Translations under genes and position numbers: made by a program
Notes under the pieces: model-generated
What the model was told of the DNA's origin: nothing
Database searches by the model: none
What the model saw: only the letters and a program-made list of their open reading frames with translations
Shown here: piece by piece, positions 140 through 63,996 of the stretch
How positions within the stretch are numbered: position 1 is the first letter of the stretch
Layout: every line of letters begins with the position of its first letter
Assembly: GCF_036370855.1 (NCBI RefSeq)
Contig: NC_088102.1
Coordinates: 72,425,601 to 72,489,600, forward strand
Source: Dromaius novaehollandiae
Taxonomy: Eukaryota > Chordata > Aves > Casuariiformes > Dromaiidae
Direction of reading: 5' to 3'
DNA length: 64,000 bases

Positions 140-3100
140 ATGCTGTGGAGCTCAGGCTGGTGAATGGAGGTGGTCCCTGTGCAGGCAGAGTGGAGGTGAA
201 GCTGCGGGGCCAGTGGGGAACGGTGGCAGATGACGTATGGGACATGGAGGATGCCGAGGTGGTGTGTCAGCAGCTGGGCTGTGGCTCAGCCAAAAACGCC
301 CATGACTCGACCCACTTTGGGAGAGCGTCTGGACCTATTCAACTGGCTCTTGTGGACTGTCGCGGGGATGAGTCTGCACTCTGGGAATGCACTGTCCCGG
401 GATGGGGGCCATACCCTGGCCGCCATGACTGGGATGTTGGTGTGGTCTGCCAAGGTAAGAGCCATGGGGTCCCTCCAGGCTGCCTCGCACTCAGGCCCCG
501 CTATGCCAGCACCAGGATTATGGGGGCAACCCACCTGCAAGCCCCCAGCGTGTTCCACAGACCCCCAAGAGACCCCAGACTCTCTCCTCCGGCAGGGTTT
601 GTGCGGCTGGTCGGCGGGGACAGCGCCTGCTCGGGCCGTGTGGAGGTCAGGCAGGGCCGAGGCTGGGCCACCCTCTGCAAGGCCCACGTGGACCTCAACA
701 CCGCCCACGTCATCTGCAAGGAGCTGGGTTGCGGAGCAGCTCTGGCCATCACTGGGGCGGCACGCTTTGGGGCAGGAGCTGGGCCCATCTGGGACGGGGG
801 CTTTGAGTGTGCAGGCAACGAATCCCTCCTGTCTGCCTGCGCCCGCAGGCTGCCCCATGGCCAGGGCTGCACCCACACCAGTGACGCTGCCATCATCTGC
901 TCCCGTAAGAGAGCAGGGCTCGAGGTAGAAGCTGCAGCGGGAGGCAGGGGAGACGGGCAGCAGGGACAGGAGTGCCCAGGGCAGGGACGGGGCAGGGAGG
1001 CTGCGGGCTGGCTTGTGGCAGCCCCCAGGGGTGCGGGAAGGCAGCGGGGTGTGGGAGGCAGAGGGCTGCCATGCCTGCATGCCCCCACCATTGCAGAGCA
1101 CGGGACATGAGGCCTTCATCTCCAGCGTCTTTTCTCCCTCCCAGCCTACACGGGCTTCAGGCTGGTGAACGGCAGCACAGAGTGCACAGGGCGGGTGGAG
1201 CTGGAGGCACGCGGCACCTGGGGCTCCCTCTGCGACGCCGGCTGGGACATGCCCGACGCCCAGGTGCTCTGCCACAACCTCGGCTGCGGCTTTGCTGCCT
1301 CTGTGCCCCGTGGAGGGTATTTTGGGACAGGGAGCAGCCCGCTGTGGCAGGACACTTTTCACTGCAGCGGGACTGAGTCCCACCTGGGAGAGTGCCCTGC
1401 CACGGTGCTGGGGACCCCCGCCTGCTCGCCGGACCACGCTGCCGCAGTCAATTGCTCAGGTGCGTGTGGGGCAGGTGGTGCCAGCCACAAGGGCTTCCTG
1501 GGGGGAGGGGACCCAGCACCCCAAAAAGGAAGGGTACCCCACTCCCCCTACTGCCACCAGGAGCTGTGGGGCACAGGGCCCATGTGGGGAAGCAGCGCCA
1601 TGTCAGGGCAGGAGGAGGGCTGAGCCCAGGCATAGGGCAGCAGGCACATGGGCAGGAGGAGGGCAGTGGGGCCATGCTGTCCCCCAGCATCCTGTGGGAC
1701 TCCTTGGCACCCCACGGTCCCCAAAGAGCCTCAGGACATCTGCCCTCTGTGCGGGGACAGGTGGCACGGAACCCCTGCGGCTAGTGGATGGGGAGAGCCG
1801 CTGTGACGGGCGCCTGGAGGTGGCCCTGGGTGGGGCCTGGGGCCGAGTCCTGGCACAGCAGTGGGATGCCAGCAGTGCCAGCGTGGTGTGCCGGCAGCTC
1901 CGGTGCGGCACGGTGCAGAAGGCCTATGCTGCCCCAGTGCTGGGGCCAGGCTCGAGCCCCCTGGGGCTGAGCGGGCTCCGGTGTGTGGGCACGGAGGCTC
2001 GCCTGGCCCAGTGCAACTCCACGCTGCCCAGCGCCGTGCCGCCGGACCATGCCGAGGAAGCGGCAGTTGTGTGCTCGGGTGAGTGTGCCGGGAAGGGCCC
2101 CGGGGCACTGTGGGGGCCCGAGCAGCTGCCCCATCCCAGGCTGTCTCTGGCTGCAGGGAGCCAGCGCGTCCGGCTGGTGAGTGGCCCTGGGCGCTGTGCT
2201 GGGAGAGTGGAGGTCTACGTGCAGGGGACCTGGAGCCGCGTCTGCGAGGACACCTGGGACCTGTGGGACGCCGCTGTCGTCTGCCACCAGTTGGGCTGCG
2301 GCGAGGTCCTGGCAGTGCCCGGCTCGGCCCGCTACGGCCGGGGCTCGGGGCCAGTGTGGCTGGGTGCTGGCGCCTGCTCCAGGGCCGAGGCGACACTCTG
2401 GGAATGCCCAGCCCCGGCACCAGCCCCAGCCCTGGCCCCGGGGCAGCGTGGCTGTAAGAAGGGTGCTGGTGCGGCAGCCATCTGCTCAGGTCAGCACCGC
2501 GCTCCACCAGGGCCAGGGCCAGCGGGGCTGTGGGACCGGTTGTGGCATCAGCCCTCCCGACCGGCCTCCCTGCCCACCTCCCCACACCCTGGGCAGTCCG
2601 GGGAGTGAGACGGCACCTTCGCCCCACTGCCCTGCCGTGTCCACTCCTTAGAATGCTTCTCATGGTGACCCGGGGAGGTGGGCGGAGTGGCCGGGACAGC
2701 AGGGGTGTTGCCCAGCCCCGCCTGAGCTGTGCCTACGCCCCCATGCTGCCCCCTTGCAGAGCTCACAGCCCTGCGGCTGGCAGGCGGCAGCAGCTGCACC
2801 GGGCGCCTGGAGGTCTTCTACAATGGGACGTGGGGCAGTGTGTGCGCCAACGGCACCAGCCCTGCCACAGCCGCTGTGGTGTGCCAGCAGCTGGGCTGTG
2901 GGGCTGGGGGCCGGCTGTCACCTACACCCACAACCACACAGGGCTCAGGCCCCGCGTGGCTGGCCTGGGTGCAGTGCGAGCTGGGGGCCGACTCCCTCTG
3001 GCACTGCCCCTCGGCACCCTGGCAGCTGCAGCCCTGTGACTCCCCTGGGGACACCCACATCTTGTGCGACAGGGAGCCTGGAGGTACCAGAGCAACTCCC

Positions 3101-4974
3101 ACATCAGCCACAGCAACCAGCTGTCCAGATGGCACAGCCTGCACAGGTAGCTCTGCCTGCACAGGGCAGCGCGGTGGCCCCAGGGATCCTCCAGCTCGGG
3201 GTGGTGCAGCCTCTCTGTCCCACCAGCCACTCCCCTGCATCCCGCTGTGCGTCCACAGTGATGCAGCATGGGATATGGCCAGACTCCCTCCAGCCGTGCA
3301 GCTCGTGTCGGTGTCGTCGCAGGTGCTCACAGGACCCACGCAGCAGGGGCTGGATCCATGCCAGTGCCCACCATGCTCTGCATCGTCCTGGGCACCCTGC
3401 TCTGCCTGGCCCTGGGGACCCTCGCTGTGCAGGCATGGCGTGCCATGGCTCAGCACAGAGGTGGGTTGTGCCGGTGGTCTCTGGGGCTGAAGCTACTAGG
3501 ACGAGGCGTCAGGGCAGAGCCAGTCAGGGCTGGGGGCTGCTGATGGCCCTGGGGACTGCCTGGCCATGGGGCAGCCTGGCTGCACAGGCTGGGGGCAGGC
3601 GTGGCAGTGGAAGCCAGGAGGCCAGTGCTGAGCGAAGGCAGGACCCGGCGCAGCACAGAGGCCAGGCAGGGGCACCAGAGCTGCTCGGAGGATGGGGCAG
3701 AGCAGTGGGGCTGTGCCACAGGGTTATCAAGGTCACAGCTGGTGACCCCCACCATCCCATGTGCTGCTCCCACAGCCTGGGGTTATGGCTGCCCTTGCTT
3801 TCCAGGCCCTGGCAGAGCCATGGACGCAATCTCTGAGGCTGTCTATGAGGAGCTCGACTACACTCTGATGCCGGAGTACCAGGAGGTGCCCAGTGGCTCA
3901 GGTGCATGCACCCTGACTCCCGTGCTCAGGCCAGCCCAGCCCGGTGCCTCTTCCTGGGGAGGGAGGTCTCTGCACTGAGACCCCCACGCACCCATTGCTG
4001 CAGCAGCCGGGCTGAGAGCCCGGCCACGTGCTGACCATGGGAAGCTGCAGAGCAGGGCTGTATCCTGACCCCTCACAGTCCCCGCTGTGTGGCGAGGCTG
4101 TCCTGCCCAGGGTGCTGGCCAGCCTTTGAGGCTGGGAAGCCTCCCCTAATGCCCCATCGCGCAGGCTCGCCTTCAGATGGCTCAGTGACAAAGCTCTCGT
4201 ATTACACCAGTGACAGTGTGGAGGCCAGCAGCCCCACGACAGCAGCAAGTACAGGGCTGGGGTGCAGAGCCGCAGCCCTCGCGCCGCAGCCGGTGCCAGC
4301 AGGGGACTCACATCGTGCCTGGGCAGCATGGCCACGTGGCGCTCAGTTATTTTCTGGGCCGGCACTCAAAGCTGGGGCCGCACCTCCTGGCTGCTGACTC
4401 CATCCGAGAGCTGGCATCCCAATGCAGCTGGCCCCCATGTCGGTACCCGCAGCTCCGTGGCCAGTGGGGGCTGGCACTACACGACCCCTGCCCTGGAACT
4501 TCATTTCACTGCCCTGTCTGTCGCAGACACCCCTGCACTGCCCAGACACGACCCCTTGGACGGGTACGACGATGCCACGGCCGTACTGCACCTGGGAGAG
4601 GTCGCTGCTCCGGGGCCGAGCGAAAGCGATGGAGATGTCTCAGAGGTGGCAGCACTGGGAGGTAAGAGGTGCCGCAGCCCACACAGCAGCACTGCCCTTC
4701 CCAGCGCTGTGCCATCCCGCTGGGAGAGGTGGCTCCCCCGTGCTCTACCACGGTGGTGGGCAGTGCCTGGGCACAGGGGGAGCCCTGGCCCTGGCCTGGC
4801 AGCCGGGGGATGAAACGGCCCCTAGAGGCACCAGCCATGCTGTCCCCAGTGCGGAGTCCATCCTCGCTGAGCCACTTGGATCTGCCGGGAGCTGCGACAG
4901 ATGCACCAGCCTCAGCACCCCGGGATGCGGGCTATGACGATGTTGGTGCCAGCGGCCCCGGGACATTGCTGTGA
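140..4974 (+). CDS. WC1-like SRCR receptor, gene A (5' end outside window)
   Basis: Type I membrane receptor of the CD163/WC1 group-B SRCR family; the promoter, signal peptide and SRCR1 lie before base 1. Exons seen: SRCR2 140-454, SRCR3 596-904, SRCR4 1145-1459, SRCR5 1761-2078, SRCR6 2157-2489, SRCR7 plus stalk 2760-3146, transmembrane 3323-3460, tail 3806-3901, 4165-4248, 4527-4661, 4850-4974 (TGA). All introns are GT-AG and phase 1, and every internal exon is a multiple of 3. The SRCR domains keep the RLV.G...C.GRVEV and VVC.QLGCG cores. The membrane span is MLCIVLGTLLCLALGTL. The tail carries YEELDYTL, DGYDDA and a final GYDDVG, as in mammalian WC1. No disabling change is seen, so it is probably functional. 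The third tail exon is 2 codons longer than in C and D. Family identity is firm; orthology to one named gene is not claimed. Confidence 0.88.
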
Positions 4975-6285: not shown

Positions 6286-6548
6286 CAGACACTCCTGCCC
6301 TGCCCAGGGACTACATCCTAGATGGGTACAATGATGCCGTGGCCACGCTGCACCCCGGAGCGGCCCCCGGTCAGGGGCCGAGCAAGGAAGGTCTCCGAGG
6401 CAGCAGGGCTGGGAGGTAAGAGGCACCACAGCCTGCGTGGCAGTGCTGCTGTTCCCAGCACCGTGCCTTCCCATCAGGAGAGGCAGCTCCCCCATACTGT
6501 GGGGCTAACCACCCTGATCATCTCCCCACACCCTGAGCAGTCCTGGGC

Positions 6549-6562
6549 GGGGGGGGGGGGGG
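6549..6562. repeat. G homopolymer, 14 nt
   Basis: An unbroken run of 14 G close to the junction where a tail intron meets the SRCR6-7 intron in pseudogene B. Other copies lack it at the matching site. Its length may be an assembly or polymerase artefact. Confidence 0.8.
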
Positions 6563-7974
6563 AGAGCACCTTTGCCCCACTGCCTCGAGGTGTCCGCTCC
6601 TTGGGGTGCTTCTCTTAGTGCCCCAGGGAGGTGGGCGGAGTGGCCAGGACAGTGGCGGTGTCTGCCCACGCCCGCCTGAGCCGTGCACCTGCACCATGCT
6701 GCCCCCTTGCAGAGCTCACAGTCCTGCAGCTGGCGGGCGGCAGCAGCTGCACCGAGCGCCTGGAGGTCTTCCACAACGGGACGTGGGGCAGCGTGTGCGC
6801 CAACGTCACCAGCCTCGCCACAGCTGCTGTGGTGTGCCGGCAGTGGGGCTGAAGGGCCACAGGCCGGCTGGCATCTGCCCCCGCAGGCACACAGGGCTTG
6901 GGCCCCGCATGGCTGGCCTGGGTGCAGTGTGGGCTGGGGACCGACTCCCTCTGGCACTGCCCCTCGGCACCCTGGCACCTGCAGCCCTGCGACTCCCTCG
7001 GGGATATTCACACCATGTGTGATGGGGAGCCTGGCGGCACCAGAGGGACTCCCACATCAGCCATGGCAACCAGCCGCCCAGATGGCACAGACGGCATAGG
7101 TACCTCTTCCCGCGCAGAGCAGCACGGTGGCCCCCGGGACCCTCCAGCTCCGGCCAGCGCAGCCCAGTGGAGGGGGAGCAGCTCTGGCAAGGAGATCCCA
7201 GCTGCCTGGGCACTGATACCCCTCGGCCTCATGCAGGGGTTGGCCCCCAGGCACAGGGGTGCCCTCCTTGGCCTCCCTGTCCCTCCTGCCACTCCTCTGC
7301 ACCCCCCGTGCATCCACAGTGATGCAGGATGGGACAGGGTCCTCAGCCTCCCTCCAGCTCTGCCGCGTGTTGGTGTCGTTGCAGGTGCCCACAGGAGCCC
7401 CACAGCGGGTGCTGGGGCCATGGCAGTGCCCGTCATCCTCTGCATCATCCTGGGGACCCTACTCCGCCTGGCCCTGGGGGCCCTCGCCGTGCAGGCAAGG
7501 CGCGCCATGGCTCGGCACAGAGGTAGGTCGTGCCGGGGGTCTCTGGGGCTGAAGCTACCAGGAGGAGGCGCCAGGGCAGAGCCAGTCAGGGCTGGGGGCT
7601 GCTGATGGTTCCTGGGACTGCCTGGCCATGGGGCGGCCCAGCTGCACAGGCTGGAGGTGGGTGTGGCAGTAGAGGCCCGGAGGCCAGTGCCGAGCAGGGG
7701 CAGGACCCAGCGCAGCACGAGGGTCAGGCAGGGGTGCCAGAGCCACTCGGTGGATGGGGCAGAGCAGTGGAGCTGGGCCACAGGGTTATCGCGGGCACAG
7801 CTGGTGACCCCCACCATCCCACATTCTGTGCCCACGGCCTGGGGTTACGGCTGCCCTTGCTTTCTAGGCCCTGGCAGAGCCACGGATGCAATCTCTGAGG
7901 CCATCTATGAGGAGCTCGACTACACCCTGACACCGGAGTACCAGGAGGTGCCCAGTGTCTCAGGTGCATGCACC

Positions 7975-8265
7975 CTGGGACAGGAGCTTCAAGTGTTCAG
8001 GCAACGAATCTCTCCTGTCTGCCTGCACCCACAGACTGCCCCATGGCCAGGGCCACACACTCAGCACCGATGCCAGTGTTGTCTGCTCTCATAAGAGCAC
8101 GGAGCACGGGGAAAAGGCTGCAGAGGGAGGCACTGGGAGACGGGCAGTGGGGACAGGGGTGCCCTGGGCAGGGACGGGGCATGGAGGCTGTGGGCTGGCT
8201 TGTGGCACCCCCCAGGGGTGTGGGGAGGCAGAGGGATGCGGGAGGCAGAGGGCTGCAATGGCCTG
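7975..8265 (+). pseudogene. SRCR3 3'-end remnant inside a tail intron of B
   Basis: From about 7985 the intron after the YEEL exon matches the 3' third of the SRCR3 exon (core GNESLLSAC, RLPHGQG), its donor region and about 160 nt of the intron beyond. It cannot form a whole domain. The same insertion sits at the same place in gene E. Confidence 0.75.
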
Positions 8266-10556
8266 GCAGGCCATGACTCCCAACAGCCCCTCCCTGGCCA
8301 GCCCGGCTCAGCCCAGTGCCTCTCCGTGGGGAGGGAGGTCCCTGTACTGAGGCCCCCACGCACCCGCTGCAGCAGCTGGGCTGGGAGCCCGGCCACGTGC
8401 AGGCCGTGGGGAGCTGCAGCGCAGAGGCATCTCCTGGCCCTCCACAGTCACCGCTGTGTGGCAAGGCTGTCCTGCCCAGGGTGCTGGCCAGGCCATGGGT
8501 CCAGGCAGCCTCCCCTAACGCCCCATCCTCCAGGCTCCCCGTCGGAGGGCTCAGTGATGAAGCTGCCATATTGCACCGTCCACAATGTGGAGGCCACCAG
8601 CCCCGGGACAGCAGCAGGTACGGGGCCGGGGCGCAGGACCGTGCTGCCGTGTGCCCAGAGTTGCAGCCCTCTGAGGCAGCTGGTGCCAGCAGGGGCCTCA
8701 CATGGTGCCTTGGCAGCATGGCCATGTGGCCCTCGGTTATTTTCTGGCCTGGCACTTGTGGCTGGGGACAAGTCTTGGGGCTACTGGCTCCATTCGAGAG
8801 CTGGCAGCCCCATGCAGCAGGCCCCAACGTTGGCACCCCCAGTTCCACAGCCAGTGGGGGCTGGCACAACGCGGCCCCTGCCCCCGCCTTTGTTTCACTG
8901 ACCATCTGTCGCAGACAACCCTGCCCAGGCACGACCTCCCAGATGGGTACAATGATGCCGCGGCCACGCTGCGCCCTGGAGTGGCCCCTGCTCAGGGGCC
9001 GAGCAAGGAAGGTGTCTCCGAGGCAGCAGGGCTGGGAGGTAAGAGGCACCACAGCCTGCGTGGCAGTGCTGCTGTTCCCAGCACCGTGCCATCCCACCAG
9101 GAGAGGCAGCTTCCCCGCGCTGTGCCGCAGTGGTGGGCAGCGTGTGGGCATGGGGGGGATCCCCAGGCGGGTCCTGGCAGCCAGGGGATGAAACAGCCAC
9201 TACAGAAACTGGCCTTGCTGACCCCAGTGGTGAGCCCACCCTCGCTGAGCCACCTGGAGCTGCCGGGAGCTGTGACAAATGCCCTAGCCTCAGCGCCTGG
9301 GGACATGGGCTACGGTGACGTTGGCGTCAGCAGCCCCGGGACATCGCTGTGAGCACGATGGGGCCACGCTGCAGCAGTCCCTGGGGATGCACGTGGTGCC
9401 ATGGGGCTCTGCCCCCACGCAGCCACAGCCCAGCCTCGGAGGGCGTTGGCTGCCTGATTGACCACCCACTCAGGCCTGCCAGGGCCTACGGGCACTGTGG
9501 AGATCTGCCTCCATCATCCCGCCAACACAGCCCTCTGGCCATGCCAGACTTTGTGTGTCCTTCCACTGTGCATTTCTCTCTTTTCTATTGTTCTCATGGC
9601 CGGGGCACAGGGCCATGCTGCCACGTGCCCGGAGGTGCAGCCCTCTGATGCAGCTGGTGGTCTCACGTGGTGCCTGGGCAGCATGGCCATGTGGCCCTCG
9701 GTTATTTTCTGGCCTGGCATTCATGGCTGAGGACTAGCCTCAGGGCTGCTGGCTCCATCCGAGAGCTGGCAGCCCCACACAGTGGGCCCCAACATCGGCA
9801 GCCCCAGGTCCATGGCCAGTGGGGGCTGGCACAACGCAATGCCTGCCCCAGCCTGGGTTTCACTGTCCTGTCTGTTGCAGACACCCCTGCACTGCTCTGG
9901 CACAACCCTCCCCAAACGGGTACGGTGATGCTGCGGCCGTGGTGTACTCAGGAGAGGCCACTGCTCCAGGACTGAGCAACGGAGATGTCTCCGAGCCGGC
10001 GGCACTGGGAGGTAAGAGGCGCCGCAGCCCACACAGCAGCGCTGCTGTTCCCAGCACCGTGCTGTCTGGCCGGGAGAGGTGGCTCCCCTGTGCACTTCCG
10101 CGGCAGTGTGCAGTGCCTGGGCACAAGTGGAGCCCCGGGCCTGGACCTGGCAGACGGGGGATAAAACGGCCCCTAGAGGTACCAGCCATGCTGTCTGCAG
10201 AGGGGAGCCGGCCCTCGCTGAGCCAGCCAGAGCTGCCGGGAGCCGCGACAGATGCACCAGCTTCAGCGCCCCAAGACATGGGCTACGACGATGTTGGTGT
10301 CAGCGGCCCCGGGACGTTGCTATGAGGATGGCAGGGCCACACTGCAGCAGTCCCTGAGGACACGCGTGGTGCCATGGGGATCTGCCCCCACGCAGCCACA
10401 GGCCAGCCACAGCGGGCATCGCCTGTCTCATTAACCGCCCACTTGGGCCGGCCAGGGACTATGGGCACCATGGAGATGGGCCTCCATCATCCCTCCTGCA
10501 CAGCCCTCCAGGCGCTGCCTGAGTTTGTGCTTCCACTGTGCATTTCTCTCTCTTCT

Positions 10557-11961: not shown

Positions 11962-12180
11962 ACAAGCACCACACACCACTGTGCTACTGGGAGCTATGGA
12001 GATGGGAAAGACAATGACAAGGAGGAAGATCACCGTGGAGTGGGCAGGAGCAGTCCTTTATACACAGTTTGACTATGTTTTCTACCTCAACTGGAAAGAA
12101 ATCAGCCCCACTACAGCAGGGAGTGCAGCACACTTGATTTCCAAGCTCTGTCATTGCCCCTACTTGGACTCTTCCATCTG
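11962..12180 (+). pseudogene. NLRP3-like NACHT fragment 1
   Basis: The + frame reads the start of a NACHT domain of the NLRP family: TTVLLGAMEMGKT, then WAGAVLYTQFDYVFYLNW. Human NLRP3 has GAAGIGKT and DWASGTLYQ..FDYLFY at the same places. The P-loop glycine and alanine are altered here (GAME), unlike the other three copies. Homology ends after about 70 residues near CHCPYLDSSI, and no Walker B is found. It is a relic fragment, not a gene. Confidence 0.75.
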
Positions 12181-16880: not shown

Positions 16881-16964
16881 ATGGCAGAAGTGGAGCCGAG
16901 ACGCATATATGGGCATGCACGGGGATGGAGAAGGTTATTGGAGGCTGGGGCTCCGTCAGATGGG

Positions 16965-31020: not shown

Positions 31021-31091
31021 TTCAGGAAACCACAAGTGTAAGCCACACACATGCAGCCACAGGCAACAAGCAAGCCAACGCTGCTGTTACT

Positions 31092-35111: not shown

Positions 35112-35195
35112 TGCCCCCCCCACCACAGCAGCCTCTGGTGGCCCAGGAGGAGAGCGGGTGCTGGGGGCTGCACTGTGGGGCAGGAGGTGTTTGGG

Positions 35196-41100: not shown

Positions 41101-41200
41101 CCCGGAGCTGCCAGGAGCCACGACAGATGCACCAGCTTCAGCGCCCCGAGACATGGGCTACGACGATGTTGGTGTCAGTGGCCCCAGGACATCACTGTGA
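35196..41200 (+). CDS. WC1-like SRCR receptor, gene D (start exon altered)
   Basis: Exons: signal peptide from ATG 35196 (donor at 35255/35256); SRCR1 35775-36095, SRCR2 36265-36579, SRCR3 36724-37032, SRCR4 37272-37586, SRCR5 37878-38195, SRCR6 38274-38594, SRCR7 plus stalk 38869-39255; transmembrane 39532-39669; tail 40015-40110, 40371-40454, 40759-40887, 41076-41200. From SRCR1 on, all exons are phase 1 multiples of 3 without stops. The upstream ATG of gene C is CTG here, so the second ATG is used. Exon 1 is 7 nt shorter than in C, E and F, and the usual donor would put SRCR1 out of frame. A GT 4 nt later (35260) would restore it, giving 973 aa. The tail is intact: YEELDYTLTPEYQEV, KLPYYTSDS, DGYDDA, GYDDVG. 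It is either functional through the alternative donor or a very young pseudogene. Confidence 0.85.
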
Positions 41201-42033: not shown

Positions 42034-43480
42034 TCACTGGGCACCAGTGAAAAGAGGCTGGCCCCATCCTCTTCACAAATTCCCTTCACATAGTTATACC
42101 CATCAGTACAGAACCCCCGCCCTCAGGCTTCCCTCCTCCACCATGAACAGGCCCAGCTCTCTCAGCTTTTCCTTGTATGATACATATTCCCATTCCTTCA
42201 GCATCATAGGAGCCCTTTGCTGCACTCGCTCCAGGAGCTCCGTGTCTCTCTTGTCTTGGGGAGTCCAGAACTGCACACAGCACTCCAGACGTGGCCTCCC
42301 CAGGGCTCAGTAGAGGCAAAGGATCACCTCCCTCCACCTGCTGACAACACTCTGCCTAATGCAGCCCAGCATACCCTTGGCCTTCTTGGCCACAAGGGCA
42401 CGGTGCTGGCTCACGGTCAGCTTGTTGTCCACCAGGCCTCCCAGGTCCTTCTCTGCATGGCTGCTTTCCAGCAGGTCAGCCACCACCCTCTACTGCTGCA
42501 GCGGGTATTCCTCCCCAGGGGCAGGCCTCTGCACTTCACCTGATTCAGCTTCATGAGGTTCCCCTCTGCCCATCTCCCCAGACTGTCAAGCTACCTCGGA
42601 AGGGCAGCACAGCCCTCTGGGGTATCTGCCACTCCTCTCAGGATCACCCTTGGATCATCAGCACACTTGCTGCAGGTGCACTCTGTCCCCTCATCCACGT
42701 CACTGAGGAAGAAGATGAACAGTACTGCACCCAGCATGGACCCCTGGCAGACACCGCCAGCTACAGGCCTCCAACGAGACTTTGTGCTGCTCATCACAAT
42801 CCTCTGAGCTCTGCCAGACAGCCAGTTTTCAAGCCACCTCACTGTCTGCCCATCTAACCCACACTTCCTCAGCTTGCCTGTGAGGATGTGATGGGAGACA
42901 GTGTCCAAAGCCTTGCTCAAGTCAAGGGAGACAACTTGCCCTGCTCTCCCCTCATCTACCCAGCCAGGCGTCCCATCCTAGAAGGCTCTCACGTTGGTTA
43001 AGCATGATTTCCCCCTTTGGGAATCCACACTTGCTACTCTGGATCTGGAAAAGTCAGCCTCTCTTGAGGCTTTCTCCCTGCTCTCCAGGGCCTGGGATAT
43101 GCGGAGGGCCCGTCTTTGCAGGAAAGACTGCAGCAAAGCAGCATTTAGGATCTCTGCCTTTCCAACATGCTTTGTCACCAGGGCCCTTTCCCCGGTCAGC
43201 AGTGAGCCCACAACTTCCCTTCTCCTCCTTTGGTTATTGATGGATTTAAAGAAGCCCTGCTTGCTTCACATCCCTCAACACATTAAACTCCAAAGGGGCC
43301 GGGGTCTCGGCCTGGACCTTTTGAGCCACATCCTTCCTACTCGGACAACATCCCTCTATTCCTCCCATGTTTCCTGAGGCTGGCTCCACACAAGCCCTGC
43401 CTCAGCTTTTGGCAGTTCTCCTTAAGCATGGTGTCAAACAGATGTCCCCTGGCATTGTAGTACTCTAAGAGTAGTTCAGG
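42034..43480 (-). mobile_element. CR1 LINE fragment
   Basis: Antisense CR1. Minus strand 42591-42920 reads SKALDTVSHHILTGKLRKCG (motif A region of the reverse transcriptase), then SDVDEGTECTCSKCADD. It ends next to NACHT fragment 3. Confidence 0.88.
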
Positions 43481-43545
43481 AAACCACAAGTGTAAGCCAC
43501 ACACATGCAGCCACAGGCAACAAGCAAGCCAACGCTGCTGTTACT

Positions 43546-43800
43546 ATGGCACGGCTGTTTCAACCTCATGAAGAAGGACAAGCGCCACACACCACTGTGC
43601 TGCTGGGAGCTGCAGGGATGGGAAAGACAATGACAAGGAGGAAGATCACCATGGAGTGGGCAGGAGCAGTCCTTTATACACAGTTTGACTATGTTTTCTA
43701 CCTCAACTGGAAAGAAATCAGCCCCACTACAGCAGGGAGTGCAGCACACTTGATTTCCAAGCTCTGTCATTGCCCCTACTTGGACTCTTCCATCTTGGCT
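43546..43800 (+). pseudogene. NLRP3-like NACHT fragment 3
   Basis: Nearly the same as fragment 2 (Walker A GAAGMGKT, FDYVFYLNW). It also reads SAAHLISKLCHCP, aligning with the LGDLIMSCCPDP stretch of NLRP3. Sequence after 43800 no longer resembles NACHT. Confidence 0.78.
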
Positions 43801-48104: not shown

Positions 48105-48188
48105 TGCCCCCCCCACCACAGCAGCCTCTGGTGGCCTGGGAGGCAAGCAGGAGCTGGGGACTGCAGCATTGGGCAGGAGGTGTTTGGG

Positions 48189-51100
48189 ATGGCCACCATC
48201 AGCCAGCTCCTTGCCAGCGCACTGGGGCTGCTGCTGTGCGTGCAGCTCTGCAGGGGTGAGTGCCTGTGGGCTCCCCGGGGCTGGAGCTGCCTGCCCTCAT
48301 GCCGAGAGTGGGAGGCAGCCCTGGGGTTGGGGAGGCCACCGTGGGGCTGGGGTGGCCTCCATGGGTCTGTGTGTGACCTTCTGGGTGGGCTTCTCAGAGG
48401 CACCAGTGGAGGCACACCACCTGGGCAGCCCCCAGGGGCCCACGGTGCCTGCACTGTGCTGGGGACAGGGTTTTTGCAGTGGGGCTGAACACTGAGCACA
48501 TGTGGCAGGACATGTCCTCTGCTGTGTTCACCTTGCATCGGGTGCTGGACATTCAGGGTCTGGATATGGCCCTACCTTTCTTCACACCTGGTGTCCTGCA
48601 GTGCACCCAAGGCTTTTCCACCCACACAGCCATATGCCAGGGTCCAAAAGCCAGGCCCGCAGTGGGGAGTGGAGGCCATCAGGGCAGGGAACAGCTGTGG
48701 GACAGAGCTCCCTGGCCAGCCTGGCAGGGCATGCTACACCAGACAACACTGACACCATGCTGGGACTCCATGTCCTCCTTTGTGGTCCCACATGGGCACC
48801 CACAGGCACCGGGGAGCTGCGACTGGTTGACGGAGGCAGCCGCTGTGCCGGCCGGGTGGAGGTGAAGCACGAGGGCCAGTGGGGCACCGTGTGCAGCTAT
48901 GACTTCCTCTGGGATGTCCGTGGGGCCTCCGTGGTCTGCAGGCAGCTGGGATGTGGCACCGTGGCAAGGACTTCCCCATACATGCCGTTCGGGGCAGGTG
49001 CTGGCCAGATTTGGCTGCAACCTTTTCTATGTCGTGGCAGTGAGACAGCACTCCACCACTGTCCCCACTACGGCTGGGGCCAGCACTACTGTGGCCATGA
49101 CACAGATGTTGGGGTGACGTGCTCAGGTGAGGGATCAGGATACTCTGCCAGGGAGCAGACCCTTGGCTGTGCGCAGTTTGGAGATGGCATGGCTATGCCC
49201 AGGGACTTCCCAATGGGGACTGCCTGGGCACAGATGGGGTGCAGGAGTGGGGCTGCAGTGCACCACACTCACGCCCTGAGGGCACCTCTAATACAGATGC
49301 TGTGGAGCTCAGGCTGGTGAATGGAGGTGGTCCCTGTGCCGGCAGAGTGGAGGTGAAGCTGCGGGGCCAGTGGGGAACGGTGGCAGATGACGTATGGGAC
49401 ATGGAGGATGCCGAGGTGGTGTGTCAGCAGCTGGGCTGTGGCTCGGCCAAAAGCGCCCATGACTCGACCCACTTTGGGAGAGGGTCTGGACCTACTCAAC
49501 TGGCTCTTGTGGACTGTCGCGGGGATGAGTCTGCACTCTGGGAATGCACTGTCCCGGGATGGGGGCCATACCCTGGCCCCCATGACTGGGATGTTGGTGT
49601 GGTCTGCCAAGGTAAGAGCCATGGGGTCCCTCTAGGCTGCCTCGCACTCAGGCCCCGCTATGCCAGCACCATGGTTATGGGGGCAGCCCCCCTGCAAGCC
49701 CCCAGCGTGTTCCAGGGACCCCCAAGAGACCCCAGACTCTCTCCTCCGGCAGGGTTTGTGCGGCTGGTTGGCGGGGACTGCACCTGCTTGGGCCGCGTGG
49801 AGGTCAGGCAGGGCCGAGCCTGGGCCACCCTCTGCAAGGCCCACGTGGACCTCAACACCGCCCATGTCATCTGCAAGGAGCTGGGTTGCGGAGCAGCTCT
49901 GGCCATCACTGGGGCAGCACGCTTTGGGGCAGGAGCTGGGCCCATCTGGGACGGGGGCTTTGAGTGTGCAGGCAATGAATCCCTCCTGTCTGCCTGCACC
50001 CGAAGGCTGCCCCATGGCCAGGGCTGCACCCACGCCAGCGATGCTGCCGTCATCTGCTCCTGTAAGAGAGCAGGGTACGGGGCAGAAGCTGCAGTGGGAG
50101 GTGCGGGGAGACGGGCAGCAGGGACAGGGGTGCCCAGGGCAGGGACAGGGTAGGGAGGCTGCGGGCTGGCTTGTGGCAGCCCCCAGGGGTGTGGGAAGGC
50201 AGCGGGGTGTGGGAGGCAGAGGGCTGCCATGCCTGCATGCCCCCACCATTGCAGAGCAGGGGACATGAGGCCTTCATCTCCAGCGCCCTTTTCTCCCTCC
50301 CAGCCTACACGGGCTTCAGGCTGGTGAACGGCAGCACAGAGTGCACAGGGCAGGTGGAGCTGGAGGCACGCGGCACCTGGGGCTCCCTCTGCGATGCCGG
50401 CTGGGACATGCCCGACGCCCAGGTGCTCTGCCACCACCTCGGCTGCGGCTTTGCCACCTCCGTGCCCCGTGGAGGGTGTTTTGGGACAGGGAGCGGCCCG
50501 CTGTGGCAGGACACATTTCACTGCAGTGGGACCAAGTCCCACCTGGGAGAGTGCCCTGCCACGGTGCTGGGGATCCCTGCCTGCTCACCGGACCACGCTG
50601 CCGCAGTCAATTGCTCAGGTGCGTGCGGGGCAGGTGGCGTCAGACAGGAGGGCCTGCTGTGGGGAGGGGACCCAGCACCCCAAAAAGGAAGGGTACCCCA
50701 CTCCCCCTACTGCCAGCAGGAGCTGTGGGGCACAGGGCCCATCTGGGGAAGCAGGGCCATGTCAGGGCAGGAGGAGGGCTGAGCCCAGACACGGCAGCAG
50801 GCACATGGGCAGGAGGAGGGCAGTGGGGCCGTGCTGTCCCCCAGCATCCTGTGGGACTCCTTGGCACCCCACGGTCCCCAAAGAGCCTCAGGACATCTGC
50901 CCTCTGTGCGGGGACAGGTGGCACTGAACCCCTGTGGCTGGTGGATGGGGAGAGCCGCTGCGACGGACACCTGGAGGTGGCCCTGGGTGGGGCCTGGGGC
51001 CGAGTCCTGCCACAGCAGTGGGATGCCAGCAGTGCAAGCGTGGTGTGCCGGCAGCTCCGGTGCAGCACGGTGCAGAAGGCCTATGCTGCCCCAGTGCTGG

Positions 51101-54048
51101 GGCCAGGCTCGAGCCCCCTGGGGCTGAGCGGGCTCCGGTGTGTGGGCACGGAGGCTCGCCTGGCCCAGTGCAACTCCACGCTGCCCAGCGCCGTGCCGCC
51201 GGACCACGCCGAAGAAGCGGCAGTTGTGTGCTCAGGTGAGTGTGCCGGGAAGGGCCCCGGAACACTGTGGGGGCCCGAGCGGCTGCCCCAACCCAAGCTG
51301 TCTCTGGCTGCAGGGAGCCAGCGCGTGCGGCTGGTGAGTGGCCCTGGGCGCTGTGCTGGGAGAGTGGAGGTCTACGTGCAGGGGACCTGGAGCCGCGTCT
51401 GCGAGGACACCTGGGACCTGTGGGACGCCGCTGTCGTCTGCCACCAGTTGGGCTGCGGCGAGGTCCTGGCAGTGCCCGGCTCGGCCCGCTACGGCCGGGG
51501 CTCAGGGCCGGTGTGGCTGGGTGCTGGCGCCTGCTCCGGGGCCGAGGCGACACTCTGGGAATGCCCAGCCCCGGCACCAGCCCCAGCCCTGGCCCCGGGG
51601 CAGCGTGGCTGTAAGGAGGGTGCTGGTGCGGCAGCCATCTGCTCAGGTCAGCACCGCGCTCCACCAGGGCCAGGGCCAGCGGGGCTGTGGGACCGGTTGT
51701 GGCATCAGCCCTCCCGACCGGCCTCCCTGCCCACCTCCCCACACCCTGGGCAGTCCGGGGAGTGAGACGGCACCTTCGCCCCACTGCCCTGCCGTGTCCA
51801 CTCCTTAGGATGCTTCTCATGGTGACCCGGGGAGGTGGGCGGAGTGGCCGGGACAGCAGGGGTGTCGCCCAGCCCCGCCTGAGCTGTGCCTACGCCCCCA
51901 TGCTACCCCCTTGCAGAGCTCACAGCCCTGCGGCTGGCAGGCGGCAGCAGCTGCACCGGGTGCCTGGAGGTCTTCTACAACGGGACGTGGGGCAGTGTGT
52001 GCGCCAACGGCACCAGCCCTGCCACAGCCGCTGTGGTGTGCCAGCAGCTGGGCTGTGGGGCTGGGGGCCGGCTGTCACCTACACCCACAACCACACAGGG
52101 CTCAGGCCCCGCGTGGCTGGCCTGGGTGCAGTGCAAGCTGGGGGCCGACTCCCTCTGGCACTGCCCCTCGGCACCCTGGCAGCTGCAGCCCTGTGACTCC
52201 CCTGGGGACACCCACATCTTGTGCGACGGGGAGCCTGGAGGTACCAGAGCAACTCCCACATCAGCCACGGCAACCAGCTGTCCAGATGGCACAGCCTGCA
52301 CAGGTAGCTCTGCCTGCACAGGGCAGCGCGGTGGCCCCAGGGATCCTCCAGCTCGGGGTGGTGCAGCCTCTCTGTCCCACCAGCCACTCCCCTGCATCCC
52401 GCTGTGCGTCCACAGTGATGCAGCATGGGATATGGCCAGACTCCCTCCAGCCGTGCAGCTCGTGTCGGTGTCGTCGCAGGTGCTCACAGGACCCACGCGG
52501 CAGGGGCTGGATCCATGCCGGTGCCCACCATGCTCTGCATCGTCCTGGGCACCTTGCTCTGCCTGGCCCTGGGGACCCTCACTGTGCAGGCATGGCGCGC
52601 CATGGCTCAGCACAGAGGTGGGTTGTGCCGGTGGTCTCTGGGGCTGAAGCTACTAGGACGAGGAGTCAGGGCAGAGCCAGTCAGGGCTGGGGGCTGCTGA
52701 TGGCTCCGGGGACTGCCTGGCCATGGGGCGGCCCAGCTGCACAGGCTGGAGTTGGGTGTGGCAGTAGAGGCCCGGAGGCCAGCGCTGAGCGAAGGCAGGA
52801 CCCAGCGCAGGACAGAGGCCAGGCAGGGGTGCCAGAGCCACTCAGAGGATGGGGCAGAGCAGTGGAGCTGGGCCACAGGGTTATCGCGGGCACAGCTGGT
52901 GACCCCCTCCATCCCACATTCTGTGCCCACGGCCTGGGGTTACGGCTGCCCTTGCTTTCTAGGCCCTGGCAGAGCCACGGATGCAATCTCTGAGGCCATC
53001 TATGAGGAGCTCGACTACACCCTGACACCGGAGTACCAGGAGGTGCCCAGTGTCTCAGGTGCATGCACCCTGGGACAGGAGCTTCAAGTGTTCAGGCAAC
53101 GAATCTCTCCTGTCTGCCTGCACCCACAGACTGCCCCATGGCCAGGGCCACACACTCGCACCGATGCCAGTGTTGTCTGCTCTCATAAGAGCACGGAGCA
53201 CGGGGAAAAGGCTGCAGAGGGAGGCACTGGGAGATGGGCAGTGGGGACAGGGGTGCCCTGGGCAGGGACGGGGCATGGAGGCTGTGGGCTGGCTTGTGGC
53301 ACCCCCCAGGGGTGTGGGGAGGCAGAGGGATGCGGGAGGCAGAGGGCTGCAATGGCCTGGCAGGCCATGACTCCCAACAGCCCCTCCCTGGCCAGCCCGG
53401 CTCAGCCCAGTGCCTCTCCGTGGGGAGGGAGGTCCCTGTACTGAGGCCCCCACGCACCCGCTGCAGCAGCTGGGCTGGGAGCCCGGCCACGTGCAGGCCG
53501 TGGGGAGCTGCAGCGCAGAGGCATCTCCTGGCCCTCCACAGTCACCGCTGTGTGGCAAGGCTGTCCTGCCCAGGGTGCTGGCCAGGCCATGGGTCCAGGC
53601 AGCCTCCCCTAACGCCCCATCCTCCAGGCTCCCCGTCGGAGGGCTCAGTGATGAAGCTGCCATATTGCACCTTCCACAATGTGGAGGCCACCAGCCCCGG
53701 GACAGCAGCAGGTACGGGGCCGGGGCGCAGGACCGTGCTGCCGTGTGCCCAGAGCTGCAGCCCTCTGAGGCAGCTGGTGCCAGCAGGGGCCTCACATGGT
53801 GCCTTGGCAGCATGGCCATGTGGCCCTCGGTTATTTTCTGGCCTGGCACTTGTGGCTGGGGACAAGTCTTGGGCTGCTGGCTCCATTCGAGAGCTGGCAG
53901 CCCCATGCAGCAGGCCCTAACATTGGCACCCCCAGTTCCACAGCCAGTGGGGGCTGGCACAACGCGGCCCCTGCCCCCGCCTTTGTTTCACTGACCATCT
54001 GTCGCAGACAACCCTGCCCAGGCACGACCTCCCAGATGGGTACAATGA
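48189..54048 (+). CDS. WC1-like SRCR receptor, gene E (tail truncated)
   Basis: Exons: signal peptide 48189-48255; SRCR1 48806-49126, SRCR2 49297-49611, SRCR3 49753-50061, SRCR4 50304-50618, SRCR5 50918-51235, SRCR6 51314-51646, SRCR7 plus stalk 51917-52303; transmembrane 52480-52617; tail 52963-53058, 53628-53711, then 54008-54131. The ectodomain is intact and closest to gene A. The third tail exon is 124 nt, not 129; the 5-nt loss shifts the frame to a TGA at 54046-54048, giving 907 aa and losing both YDD motifs. Because all tail exons are symmetric, skipping it would reach the last exon (54322-54446) in frame, giving 935 aa ending in GYGDVG. The second tail exon reads YCT where C and D have YYT. 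YEELDYTLTPEYQEV remains. It is probably expressed, with a reduced signalling tail. Confidence 0.85.
53070..53360 (+). pseudogene. SRCR3 3'-end remnant inside a tail intron of E
   Basis: Same displaced piece as in pseudogene B: CSGNESLLSACTHRLPHGQG followed by SRCR3-4 intron sequence, located 12-300 nt after the YEEL exon. There is no acceptor or full domain, so it is intronic debris. Confidence 0.75.
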
Positions 54049-54321
54049 TGCCGCGGCCACGCTGCGCCCTGGAGTGGCCCCTGCTCAGGGGCCGAGCAAG
54101 GAAGGTGTCTCTGAGGCAGCGGGGCTGGGAGGTAAGAGGCACCACAGCCTGCGTGGCAGTGCTGCTGTTCCCAGCACCGTGCCATCCCACCAGGAGAGGC
54201 AGCTTCCCCGCGCTGTGCCGCAGTGGTGGGCAGCGTGTGGGCATGGGGGGGGATCCCCAGGCGGGTCCTGGCAGCCAGGGGATGAAACAGCCGCTACAGA
54301 AACTGGCCTTGCTGACCCCAG

Positions 54322-55419
54322 TGGGGAGCCCACCCTCGCTGAGCCACCTGGAGCTGCCGGGAGCTGTGACAAACGCCCTAGCCTCAGCGCCTGGGGACAT
54401 GGGCTACGGCGACGTTGGCGTCAGCAGCCCCGGGACATCGCTGTGAGCACGATGGGGCCACGCTGCAGCAGTCCCTGGGTACGCACGTGGTGCCATGGGG
54501 CTCTGCCCCCACGCAGCCACGGCCCAGCCTCAGAGGGCGTTGGCTGCCTGATTGACCACCCACTCAGGCCTGCCAGGGCCTACGGGCACTGTGGAGATCT
54601 GCCTCCATCATCCCGCCAACACAGCCCTCTGGCCATGCCAGACTTTGTGTGTCCTTCCACTGTGCATTTCTCTCTTTTCTATTGTTCTCATGGCCGGGGC
54701 ACAGGGCCATGCTGCCACGTGCCCGGAGGTGCAGCCCTCTGATGCAGCTGGTGGTCTCACGTGGTGCCTGGGCAGCATGGCCATGTGGCCCTCGGTTATT
54801 TTCTGGCCTGGCATTCATGGCTGAGGACTAGCCTCAGGGCTGCTGGCTCCATCCGAGAGCTGGCAGCCCCACACAGTGGGCCCCAACATCGGCAGCCCCA
54901 GGTCCATGGCCAGTGGGGGCTGGCACAACGCAACGCCTGCCCCAGCCTGGGTTTCACTGTCCTGTCTGTTGCAGACACCCCTGCACTGCTCTGGCACAAC
55001 CCTCCCCAAACGGGTACGGTGATGCTGCGGCCGTGGTGTACTCAGGAGAGGCCACTGCTCCGGGACTGAGCAACGGAGATGTCTCCGAGCCGGCGGCACT
55101 GGGAGGTAAGAGGCGCCGCAGCCCACACAGCAGCGCTGCTGTTCCCAGCACCGTGCTGTCTGGCCGGGAGAGGTGGCTCCCCCGTGCACTTCCGCGGCAG
55201 TGTGCAGTGCCTGGGCACAAGTGGAGCCCCGGGCCTGGACCTGGCAGACGGGGGATGAAACGGCCCCTAGAGGTACCAGCCATGCTGTCTGCAGAGGGGA
55301 GCCGGCCCTCGCTGAGCCACCCAGAGCTGCCGGGAGCCGCGACAGATGCACCAGCTTCAGCGCCCCAAGACATGGGCTACGACGATGTTGGTGTCAGCGG
55401 CCCCGGGACGTTGCTATGA
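54322..55419 (+). pseudogene. Duplicated tail exons of gene E
   Basis: The last exon (54322-54446) is followed by a second third-tail exon (54975-55105, 131 nt, +2 shifted) and a second last exon (55295-55419, ending GYDDVGVSGPGTLL). Offsets of 967 and 973 nt show a tandem duplication of about 970 bp. The duplication join near 54682 replaced the first copy's polyadenylation hexamer. The arrangement and exon lengths are identical in pseudogene B. Confidence 0.82.
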
Positions 55420-56169: not shown

Positions 56170-57470
56170 GACACATATTCCTGTCCCTTCAGCATCTTAG
56201 GAGCCCTTTGCTGCACTCACTCCAGGAGCTCCATGTCTCTCTCGTCTTGGGGAGTCCAGAACTGCACACAGCACTCCAGACGTGGCCTCCCCAGGGCTCA
56301 GTAGAGGCACAGGATCACCTCCCTCCACCTGCTGACAACACTCTGCCTAATGCAGCCCAGCATACCCTTGGCCTTCTTGGCCACAAGGGCACAGTACTGG
56401 CTCACGGTCAGCTTGTTGTCCACCAGGCCTCCCAGGTCCTTCTCTGCACAGCTGCTTTCCAGCAGGTCAGCCACCACCCTCTACTGCTGCAGCGGGTATT
56501 CCTCCCCAGGGGCAGGCCTCTGCACTTCCCTTGATTCAGCTTCATGAGGTTCCCCTCTGCCCATCTCCCCAGACTGTCGAGCTCCCTCGGAAGGGCAGCA
56601 CAGCACTCTGGGCTATCAGCCACTCCTCCTGGTTTTCGATCATCAGCACACTTGCTGTGGGTGCACTCTGTCCCCTCATCCACATCACTGAGGAAGAAGA
56701 TGAACAATACTGGACCCAGCAGGGACCCCTGGCAGACACCGCTAGCTACAGGCCTCCAACGAGACTTTGTGCTGCTCATCACAACCCTCTGAGCTCTGCC
56801 AGACAGCCAGTTTTCAAGCCACCTCACTGTCTGCCCATCTAACCCACACTTCCTCAGCTTGCCTGTGAGGATGTGATGGGAGACAGTGTCTAAAGCCTTG
56901 CTCAAGTCAAGGGAGACAACTTGCCCTGCTCTCCCCTCATCTACCCAGCCAGGCGTCCCATCCTAGAAGGCTCTCACGTTGGTTAAGCATGATTTCCCCC
57001 TTTCGGAATCCACACTTGCTACTCTGGATCTGGAAAAGTCAGCCTCTCTTGAGGCTTTCTCCCTGCTCTCCAGGGCCTGGGATATGCGGAGGGCCCGTCT
57101 TTGCAGGAAAGACTGCAGCAAAGCAGCATTTAGGATCTCTGCCTTTCCAACATGCTTTGTCACCAGGGCCCTTTCCCCGGTCAGCAGTGAGCCCACAACT
57201 TCCCTTCTCCTCCTTTGGTTATTGATGGATTTAAAGAAGCCCTGCTTGCTTCACATCCCTCAACACATTAAACTCCAAAGGGGCCGGGGTCTCGGCCTGG
57301 ACCTTTTGAGCCCCATCCTTCCTACTCGGACAACATCCCTCTATTCCTCCATGTTTCCTGAGGCTGGCTCCACACAAGCCCTGCCTCAGCTTTTGGCAGT
57401 TCTCCTTAAGCATGGTGTCAAACAGATGTCCCCTGGCATTGCAGTACTCTAAGAGTAGTTCAGGAAACCA
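56170..57470 (-). mobile_element. CR1 LINE fragment
   Basis: Antisense CR1. The minus-strand frame 56408-56905 spans motif A (ALDTVSHHIL), motif B (GVCQGSLLGPVLF) and a degenerate catalytic box (KCADD for FADD), followed by NLMKLNQGKCR. It is the longest continuous reverse transcriptase frame in the window, still 5'-truncated. Confidence 0.88.
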
Positions 57471-57529
57471 CAAGTGTAAGCCACACACATGCAGCCACAG
57501 GCAACAAGCAAGCCAACGCTGCTGTTACT

Positions 57530-57785
57530 ATGGCACGGCTGTTTCAACCTCATGAAGAAGGACAAGCGCCACACACCACTGTGCTGCTGGGAGCTGCAGG
57601 GATGGGAAAGACAATGACAAGGAGGAAGATCACCGTGGAGTGGGCAGGAGCAGTCCTTTATACACAGTTTGACTATGTTTTCTACCTCAACTGGAAAGAA
57701 ATCAGCCCCACTACAGCAGGGGGTGCAGCACACTTGACTTCCAGGCTCTGTCATTGCCCCTACTTGGACTCTTCCATCTGGGCTG
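57530..57785 (+). pseudogene. NLRP3-like NACHT fragment 4
   Basis: Walker A GAAGMGKT, then KITVEWAGAVLYTQFDYVFY. The frame stays open to 58342 (270 codons from the ATG), but only the first 85 or so residues resemble NLRP. The remainder matches no family I know and is frame-shifted in the other copies, so I treat it as a relic. Confidence 0.75.
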
Positions 57786-62039: not shown

Positions 62040-62123
62040 TGCCCTCCCCATAGCGGGGGCCTCTGGTGGCCCAGGAGGCAAGCAGGAGCTGGGGACCGCA
62101 GCATTGGGCAGGAGGTGTTTGGG

Positions 62124-63996
62124 ATGGCCACCATCAGCCAGCTCCTTGCCAGCGCACTGGGACTGCTGCTGTGCGTGCAGCTCTGCAGGGGTGAGTGCCT
62201 GCGGGCTCCCCGGGGCTGGAGCTGCCTGCCCTCACGCTGAGAGTGGGAGGCAGTCCTGGGGTTGGGGAGGCCACCGTGGAGCTGGGGTGGCCATCATGGG
62301 TCTGTGCGTGACCTGCTGGGTGGGCTTCTCAGAGGCACCAGTGGAGGCACACCACCTGGGCAGCCCCCAGGGGCCCACGGTGCCTGCACTGTGCTGGGGA
62401 CAGGGTTTTTGCAGTGGGGCCGAACACTGAGCACATGTGGCAGGACATGTCCTCTGCTGTGTTCACCTTGCATTGGGTGCTGGACATTCAGGGTCTGGAT
62501 ATGGCCCTACCTTTCTTCACACCTGGTGTCCTGCAGTGCACCCAAGGCTTTTCCACCCACACAGCCATATGCCAGGGTCCAAAAGCCAGGCCCGCAGTGG
62601 GGAGTGGAGGCCATCAGGGCAGGGAACAGCTGTGGGACAGAGCTCCCTGGCCAGCCTGGCAGGGCATGCTACACCAGACAACACTGACACCATGCTGGGA
62701 CTCCATGTCCTCCTTTATGGTCCCACATGGGCACCCACAGGCACTGGGGAGCTGCGACTGGTTGACGGAGGCAGCCGCTGCGCTGGCCGGGTGGAGGTGA
62801 AGCACGAGGGCCAGTGGGGCACCGTGTGCAGCTATGACTTCCTCTGGGATGTCCGTGGGGCCTCCGTGGTCTGCAGGCAGCTGGGATGTGGCACCGTGGC
62901 AAGGACTTCCCCATACATGCCGTTCGGGGCAGGTGCTGGCCGGATTTGGCTGCAACCTTTTCTATGTCGTGGCACTGAGACAGCACTCCACCACTGTCCC
63001 CACTACGGCTGGGGCCAGCACTACTGTGGCCATGACACAGATGTTGGGGTGACGTGCTCAGGTGAGGGATCAGGATACTCTGCCGGGGAGCAGACCCTTG
63101 GCTGCGTGCAGTTGGGAGATGGCATGGCTATGCACAGGGCCTCCCCACTGGGGCCTGCCCAGGCACAGATGGGGTACAAGAGTAGAGCTGGAGTGCAGCA
63201 CCCTCATGCCCTGAGGGCACCTCTAATACAGATGCTGTGGAGCTCAGGCTGGTGAATGGAGGTGGTCCCTGTGCAGGCAGAGTGGAGGTGAAGCTGCGGG
63301 GCCAGTGGGGAACGGTGGCAGATGACGTATGGGACATGGAGGATGCCGAGGTGGTGTGTCAGCAGCTGGGCTGTGGCTCGGCCAAAAGCGCCCATGACTC
63401 GACCCGCTTTGGGAGAGGGTCTGGACCTATTCAACTGGCTCTTGTGGACTGTCGTGGGGATGAGTCTGCACTCTGGGAATGCACTGTCCCGGGATGGGGG
63501 CCATACCCTGGCCGCCATGACTGGGATGTTGGTGTGGTCTGCCAAGGTAAGAGCCATGGGGTCCCTCCAGGCTGCCTCGCACTCAGGCCCCGCTATGCCA
63601 GCACCAGGATTATGGGGGCAACCCACCTGCAAGCCCCCAGCGTGTTCCACAGACCCCCAAGAGACCCCAGACTCTCTCCTCCGGCAGGGTTTGTGCGGCT
63701 GGTCGGCGGGGACGGCGCCTGCTTGGGCCGCGTGGAGGTCAGGCAGGGCCGAGGCTGGGTCACCCTCTGCAAGGCCCACGTGGACCTCAACACCGCCCAC
63801 GTCATCTGCAAGGAGCTGGGTTGCGGAGCAGCTCTGGCCATCACTGGGGCAGCACGCTTTGGGGCAGGAGCCGGGCCCATCTGGGACGGGGGCTTTGAGT
63901 GTGCAGGCAACGAATCCCTCCTGTCTGCCTGCGCCCGCAGGCTGCCCCATGGCCAGGGTTGCACGCACAACAGCGGCGCTGGCGTCATCTGCTCCC
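62124..63996 (+). CDS. WC1-like SRCR receptor, gene F (3' end outside window)
   Basis: Exons seen: signal peptide 62124-62190, SRCR1 62741-63061, SRCR2 63232-63546, SRCR3 63688-63996; the donor of SRCR3 is the last thing in the window. All are phase 1 and open. The first ATG position of gene C is ATT here, so translation should begin at 62124. SRCR1 and the promoter are nearly the same as in gene E, while SRCR2-3 and their introns nearly equal the start of gene A. The number of remaining domains cannot be known from the window; seven would be expected from C, D and E. Confidence 0.85.

Follow-up and report, generated by a model that had tools for sequence, protein, structure and literature searches.

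A stretch of 64,000 nucleotides from Dromaius novaehollandiae, positions 72,425,601-72,489,600 of contig NC_088102.1 (contig C5 below; the whole stretch is called the window), carries genes for membrane receptors built of SRCR domains. A preliminary description, made from the letters alone, had listed five receptor genes or partial genes and two fragments lying head to tail, and a motif scan together with an exon search found all of these in place and on the plus strand. The bird origin, called probable there, is supported by globin exons of the same assembly: apart from fused human constructs, alpha-A globin is closest to PDB chain 3wtg (emu) and one beta globin exon to 2zfb (a parakeet), both bird haemoglobins; another beta exon ties among several chains. 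But how far does the run reach beyond the window? A search of the whole genome (1.47 Gb in 271 contigs) with the SRCR1 exon found at least 37 copies on C5:72,090,525-72,602,385, all on the plus strand, 92-100% identical to one reference and without a stop in any of them; 150 of 510 candidates were scored, so the counts are lower bounds. The tail exon that encodes the YEEL motif has 53 matches in the genome with E no higher than 1: 43 on C5:72,095,012-72,606,390, one on contig C1 and nine elsewhere. Each of the 37 SRCR1 exons is followed by a tail exon 4.14-4.50 kb downstream, the six further tail exons being extra copies, and successive SRCR1 exons are spaced 11.8-20.0 kb apart. Chance likeness is excluded, because SRCR1 scores E = 6.6e-30 against Pfam SRCR and E ≤ 9.3e-64 against the 37 array copies. 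The window is thus a part of a half-megabase head-to-tail run of dozens of near-identical bird SRCR receptor genes, whose relatives include cattle WC1 and mouse SCART, with at least 37 units over ~0.5 Mb rather than the genes first noted alone.

Three full-length genes lie in the window and one of them, at 17116..23184, is plainly intact and serves as the reference. Its leader is followed by seven SRCR exons, one transmembrane exon and the four tail exons C1-C4. Its introns have AG acceptors and GT donors, except for one GC donor after SRCR1; the acceptor of the transmembrane exon was picked from several frame-keeping ones, and 228 nt separate that exon from SRCR7. The encoded protein is 1,001 residues long: behind the leader come seven SRCR domains, a single hydrophobic helix and the tail, whose motifs are YEELDYTL, DYQEV, PYYTD, GYDDA and GYDDV, exon C1 carrying YEELDYTL, C2 YYT, C3 GYDDA and C4 GYDDV with the stop. 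The other features, also on the plus strand, are less complete. A gene cut by the window start (140..4974) retains SRCR2-SRCR7, the transmembrane exon, four tail exons and the stop, and is open from SRCR2 to the stop if the transmembrane acceptor at 3302 is used; the SRCR1 search placed its SRCR1 just upstream of the window, at C5:72425248-72425568. A fragment at 6288..10322 has an SRCR7 with a stop, a transmembrane exon and tail exons, with part of SRCR3 inserted and C3/C4 duplicated, and a second fragment (25771..26878) holds SRCR4-like, SRCR5-like and partial SRCR6-like exons. The full-length gene at 35175..41200 is frameshifted by a 7-nt deletion in the leader exon, the remainder being open. 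The last full-length gene (48168..54446) is of a short-tail type: it needs an alternative transmembrane acceptor, and its frame closes within tail exon C3 when the usual C3 acceptor is used; a second C3/C4 copy lies behind it, to about 55416. In two units a piece of SRCR3 stands directly after the YEEL exon (window 7976-8091 and 53071-53154). The start of the next gene, with leader and SRCR1-SRCR3, is cut by the window end (62103..63996). The tail order YEELDYTL, DGYDDA, GYDDVG of the preliminary description holds for the genes at 0.1, 17 and 35 kb, but DGYNDA stands in place of the second motif in the two tails whose YEEL lies at 7.9 and 53.0 kb.

How uniform are the units? Sixteen full-length ones were read in the window and a further 200 kb (C5:72,060,001-72,260,000), the remaining array units being known by exon matches only, and all 16 share one plan: a leader, seven SRCR domains of one exon each, then the transmembrane exon and the four exons of the tail. 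The frame is open in most of them: 11 of the 16 run on to the stop of the long tail, ten of these spliced in the common way and one (u72168796) through a transmembrane acceptor further downstream; u72212263, also among the 11, has a non-GT donor after SRCR3. Three units are short-tailed: a stop within tail exon C3, at residue 922 or 927, removes GYDDA and GYDDV. Two are frameshifted, in the leader and in SRCR3 respectively. YEEL is present in 19 of the 19 tail exons of these two regions, and the other 24 array tails match the YEEL tail exon at 86-100% identity.

The coexistence of long and short tails brings up the first alternative. Could this be a paired-receptor system, in which near-identical heads on long (YEEL, YYT, GYDDA, GYDDV) or short tails bind the same ligand and send different signals? 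Besides the three short-tailed units, tail exons C2-C4 diverge by 16-22% in protein (dN/dS, the ratio of nonsynonymous to synonymous change, 0.31-0.39), more than the 6-7% of SRCR1 or SRCR4. However, synonymous divergence is likewise higher in C2-C4 (0.27-0.30, vs 0.12-0.22 in the SRCR exons), so this gradient may only reflect a lower level of conversion in these exons. For two of the three short-tailed units, use of a different C3 acceptor could bring the frame back. We regard paired receptors as improbable. The same goes for a head-conserved, tail-varied set, in which conversion would keep the stalk the same from copy to copy and the tails would be long or short, with the ligand fixed and the strength or type of signal varying between cells; if true, such an array would be the reverse of cattle WC1.

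Identity among 11 proteins compared, one of them frameshifted in the leader, is 87.2-98.7%. After removal of exons with an in-frame stop (17 or 18 rows left for SRCR1-7, 13 for C3), mean protein divergence for SRCR1 to SRCR7 is 7.1, 10.8, 8.2, 6.0, 11.2, 11.1 and 7.9%, the maximum of 25.3% for SRCR3 including one frameshifted row. This makes SRCR1 (17 rows) the second least variable of the seven SRCR exons. The SRCR exons are under average purifying selection, with pooled dN/dS of 0.20-0.32; an average above 1 is seen in no exon among the per-exon pooled estimates, and the 0.69 of the transmembrane exon is unreliable, one gene class being read in the wrong frame there. What keeps the copies so alike? 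Positions 1-25,000 of the window are 98.0% identical to C5:72,169,783-72,194,791 and positions 30,595-56,986 are 98.2% identical to C5:72,111,098-72,137,506, while in many units the closest relative switches exon by exon. Large shared blocks together with exon-wise change of closest relative point to unequal exchange and conversion.

Blocks of 25 kb with 98% identity could also be taken for the mark of an array inflated by assembly, or degenerating, with few working genes, and the two frameshifted and three short-tailed units among the 16, as well as the six extra tail copies, go in the same direction. But not one of the 37 SRCR1 exons contains a stop and selection is on average purifying; in addition, protein divergence between units goes up to about 13% and their spacing varies, which argues against a simple assembly repeat. 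An array of this kind is unlikely here. The array is a real, large and homogenised member of a known family.

Which family is it? Human CD163 and PIT54 are the top-scoring matches to the array SRCR domains among solved structures, which would favour scavengers of myeloid cells or plasma, working like CD163A or PIT54 (for example in haemoglobin uptake), rather than receptors for lymphocyte signalling. A domain tree of 48 rows (including the human CD163 SRCR domains, an SRCR exon of a relative on contig C1 and one domain of an SRCR cluster on contig C6) joins array SRCR3 to CD163 SRCR5 (support 94/93), SRCR4 to CD163 SRCR6 (99/95) and SRCR7 to CD163 SRCR8 (100/99). SRCR5 groups with the exon of the contig C1 relative (100/98), SRCR1 and SRCR2 group together (86/81), weakly supported near CD163 SRCR1-4, and SRCR6 is unplaced; the contig C6 domain pairs with no array domain. 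Alignment adds two co-linear pairs, SRCR3/4 on human CD163 SRCR5/6 (226.0 bits over 208 residues) and, at 225.5 bits, SRCR6/7 on SRCR7/8 of CD163, so that array SRCR3, 4, 6 and 7 align with CD163 SRCR5, 6, 7 and 8. Human CD163, however, has nine SRCR domains against seven in the array, and a linker at the place of bird SRCR5. That linker, between SRCR6 and SRCR7 (PDB chain 9nb5_A), has the second half of array SRCR5 as its best match among 18 domains, with 5 of 1000 shuffles scoring as high and a contig C1 domain giving 4 of 1000 at a lower score; on this modest evidence it looks as if it could be the stump of a lost SRCR domain. The tails also part the two. The preliminary description had set the array tail apart from that of CD163, rightly so: it has YEEL and four tail exons, and YREM is in none of 17 tails. 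CD163A has YREM and its tail is described as without significant identity to WC1-like tails (PMC2906472), while PIT54 is given as secreted (PMC8081666), unlike the array protein with its membrane helix and YEEL tail. A scavenger role is therefore a doubtful reading.

With the letters b, c, d and e for CD163 SRCR5-8, which is our own reading of the published scheme, the tree and alignments yield a predicted order in which two N-terminal SRCR domains precede b-c-(n-like)-d-e and the membrane comes last. The domains c, n-like, d and e stand in sequence and d' is missing; the n label is set by position and by the grouping with the contig C1 relative (100/98), not by mammalian n sequences. A phylogeny of SRCR exons, named as a check in the preliminary description, placed SRCR3, 4 and 7 with CD163 SRCR5, 6 and 8 but did not recover the WC1 domain order.

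This bears on the parallel co-receptor system that the preliminary description had proposed, taken here as a true functional counterpart of WC1 with a repertoire of differing pattern-recognition co-receptors on gamma-delta T cells. The array is multigene, its tail has YEEL and four exons, the host is a bird, and chicken relatives have already been named WC1 orthologues (PMC2906472). Cattle WC1, as described in PMC3511184, has SRCR1 as its most variable domain, with identity between genes down to 50% and about 90% in the other domains. The array does the opposite: its SRCR1, the counterpart of WC1's diverse head, is 92-100% identical to one reference over 37 copies, and its mean divergence of 7.1% compares with 10.8, 11.2 and 11.1% for SRCR2, 5 and 6. 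WC1-like diversification of SRCR1 was expected and is absent; SRCR1 is homogenised, which argues against a repertoire of different recognition heads, and of a WC1-style repertoire the array has no sign. The domain order differs as well, and the parallel is possible but unlikely. As for the WC1-like receptors of the preliminary description, the multigene SRCR array and the WC1/SCART-type tail stand, and WC1 proper does not, given the different SRCR order, the missing d', the n-like domain and the homogenised SRCR1. The assignment of the tail to the WC1/SCART type is partly supported, by motif, exon plan and published chicken work. We take GYDDV, as the preliminary description did, to match the WC1 C-terminus; a literature search for the WC1 tail letters found nothing.

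It seems most reasonable, with a probability of about 0.62, to read the array as a repeatedly duplicated set of avian membrane receptors with group B SRCR domains, belonging to the SCART1 (CD163c-alpha)/WC1 branch, with a YEEL tail that would boost antigen-receptor signalling and copies that are kept alike. SCART1/WC1 family is preferred to WC1 proper because tail and exon plan fit while domain order and SRCR1 diversification fail, but WC1-like action is compatible with this failure, the array having retained both YEEL and the tail exons. How would such a receptor act? In each intact protein a signal peptide is followed by seven SRCR domains, a single membrane helix and the tail. By analogy with WC1, engagement of the SRCR stalk beside the antigen receptor may lead to phosphorylation of the YEEL tyrosine by a Src-family kinase, and phosphorylated YEEL may then strengthen antigen-receptor signalling as a co-receptor. 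For WC1 these steps are described in PMC8356672 and PMC2906472, the latter reporting that YEEL phosphorylation is required for WC1 to potentiate T-cell activation. The host cell could be a gamma-delta T cell, to judge by the gamma-delta expression of WC1 and mouse SCART. Unequal exchange and conversion would hold the copies alike, and an array whose copies are kept alike more likely raises dose, or offers near-equivalent receptors with different tails, than different recognition heads.

Several points weigh against this reading. Both the WC1 domain order and an SRCR1 more diverse than the other domains are absent, and mammalian WC1 and SCART1 enter the comparison through published descriptions, not sequence. 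The tree program flags CD163 SRCR4, 5 and 8 as long rows, so some joins may be false. The top single alignment pairs SRCR3-6 (of SRCR3-7) with CD163 SRCR1-4 (259.9 bits over 396 residues), although the co-linear pairs have more bits per residue. Short-tailed or frameshifted units make up 5 of the 16 full-length ones, against a background of units seen as exon matches, and dN/dS is pooled over related pairs, with which a few selected sites are still compatible. Finally, no transcript, protein or cell-type evidence for the array was found in the literature; the main texts of three chicken single-cell studies do not mention WC1, SRCR, scavenger, CD163 or M130, which means that their authors did not name such genes and nothing more.

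The neighbourhood holds a further trace of the duplication. An NLRP gene with PYD, NACHT, winged helix and HD2 lies at C5:72,076,055-72,079,666, ~10 kb before the first array unit, and NACHT fragments related to it occur at 14 further places, four in the window and ten in the 200 kb. Those in the window are exon fragments in spacers, all on the plus strand, at 11963..12151, 31014..31313, 43462..43767 and 57446..57751. Their recurrence suggests that part of an NLRP gene was probably once included in the unit being duplicated. Elsewhere in the genome, the contig C1 relative (C1:87041515-87058803) has one tail exon, with a d'-like SRCR in front of the transmembrane exon and a YEEIDYSL tail, if its exons are rightly joined into one gene, and is perhaps a stay-at-home family member. 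Another SCART/WC1-like gene is present nine times, each copy having the same tail stretch FSEAVYQEIDYSLTWEKQ, at C5:77544769, C6:300664, C8:257544, C9:35864157, C10:30155220, C10:30260660, C48:508029, C86:187884 and C182:256233. Six of the nine are on contigs of at least 30 Mb, 129-378 kb from an end, and three on contigs below 1 Mb; the gene would be a signalling receptor spread over chromosome ends. Two further SRCR clusters, at C32:1151698-1445354 and C6:44514976-44632404, appeared among 150 of 527 candidates scored; the latter has many copies of equal score and is, we presume from its position, DMBT1-like. DMBT1 is marked by CUB and ZP domains (PMC12032555); the array units end in a transmembrane segment and a YEEL tail.

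How does the array compare with known systems? Cattle WC1, like the array, is a multigene group B SRCR family with one exon per SRCR domain, a tail of four or more exons and YEEL (PMC2906472, PMC2681482), and sits on gamma-delta T cells (PMC3511184, PMC2681482). Its 13 genes are reported to follow the pattern a-[b-c-d-e-d]-[b-c-d-e-d'] (PMC3511184), an order absent from the array, where seven domains are found, SRCR3-7 read b-c-(n-like)-d-e and there is no d'. Mammalian SCART1 and SCART2 share with the array the tail motif Y-(Q/E)-(D/C/E)-(I/L), which YEEL matches, and may share the c-(n-like)-d-e run; PMC2906472 gives this motif for SCART1 (CD163c-alpha) and a YEEL-type one for all CD163c-alpha-like molecules but one. 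Unlike the array, they number at most two genes in the non-artiodactyl eutherian mammals covered there, and their published cassette c-n-d-e-d' ends in d' (PMC2906472). Expansions are on record elsewhere: ten CD163-family genes in platypus, with a SCART1 cluster named (PMC8081666), and a CD163 family expansion reported for the king vulture. The main text of VGP Phase I does not mention WC1, scavenger or CD163, and no published 37-gene bird array was found among the literature matches listed, subscription journals lying mostly outside the search.

The closest comparison is with chicken. WC1 orthologues were proposed there in 2010 and tied to species high in gamma-delta T cells (Herzig 2010, PMC2906472), in which chickens are rich (PMC2906472); the idea of a gamma-delta co-receptor for bird WC1-like genes is thus already published in that paper and not new, and no follow-up of the proposal that bird WC1/SCART-like genes serve these cells was found in the literature consulted. 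According to the same source, chicken has at least 18 CD163-family genes in all, and six chicken proteins are hybrids of WC1 and CD163c-alpha domains; the tails of chicken genes cluster nearer WC1. Nine SRCR genes closest to WC1/CD163 are reported on chicken chromosome 16 (PMC4988538), and six 'antigen WC1.1-like' SCAR class I genes, with seven more in leghorn, show no synteny with cattle (PMC12032555). These sets and the array are alike as bird group B SRCR multigene families with a WC1/SCART-type tail motif; the array differs in having at least 37 genes in one run and no d' before the membrane. As a contiguous run with intact genes and readable unit classes, it supplies precisely defined targets for tests of expression and of ligands. 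The array fits the published chicken hybrids of WC1 and CD163c-alpha better than WC1 proper, and it sharpens the WC1 analogy to a question: is this a set of heads that differ, or a single head present in many copies?

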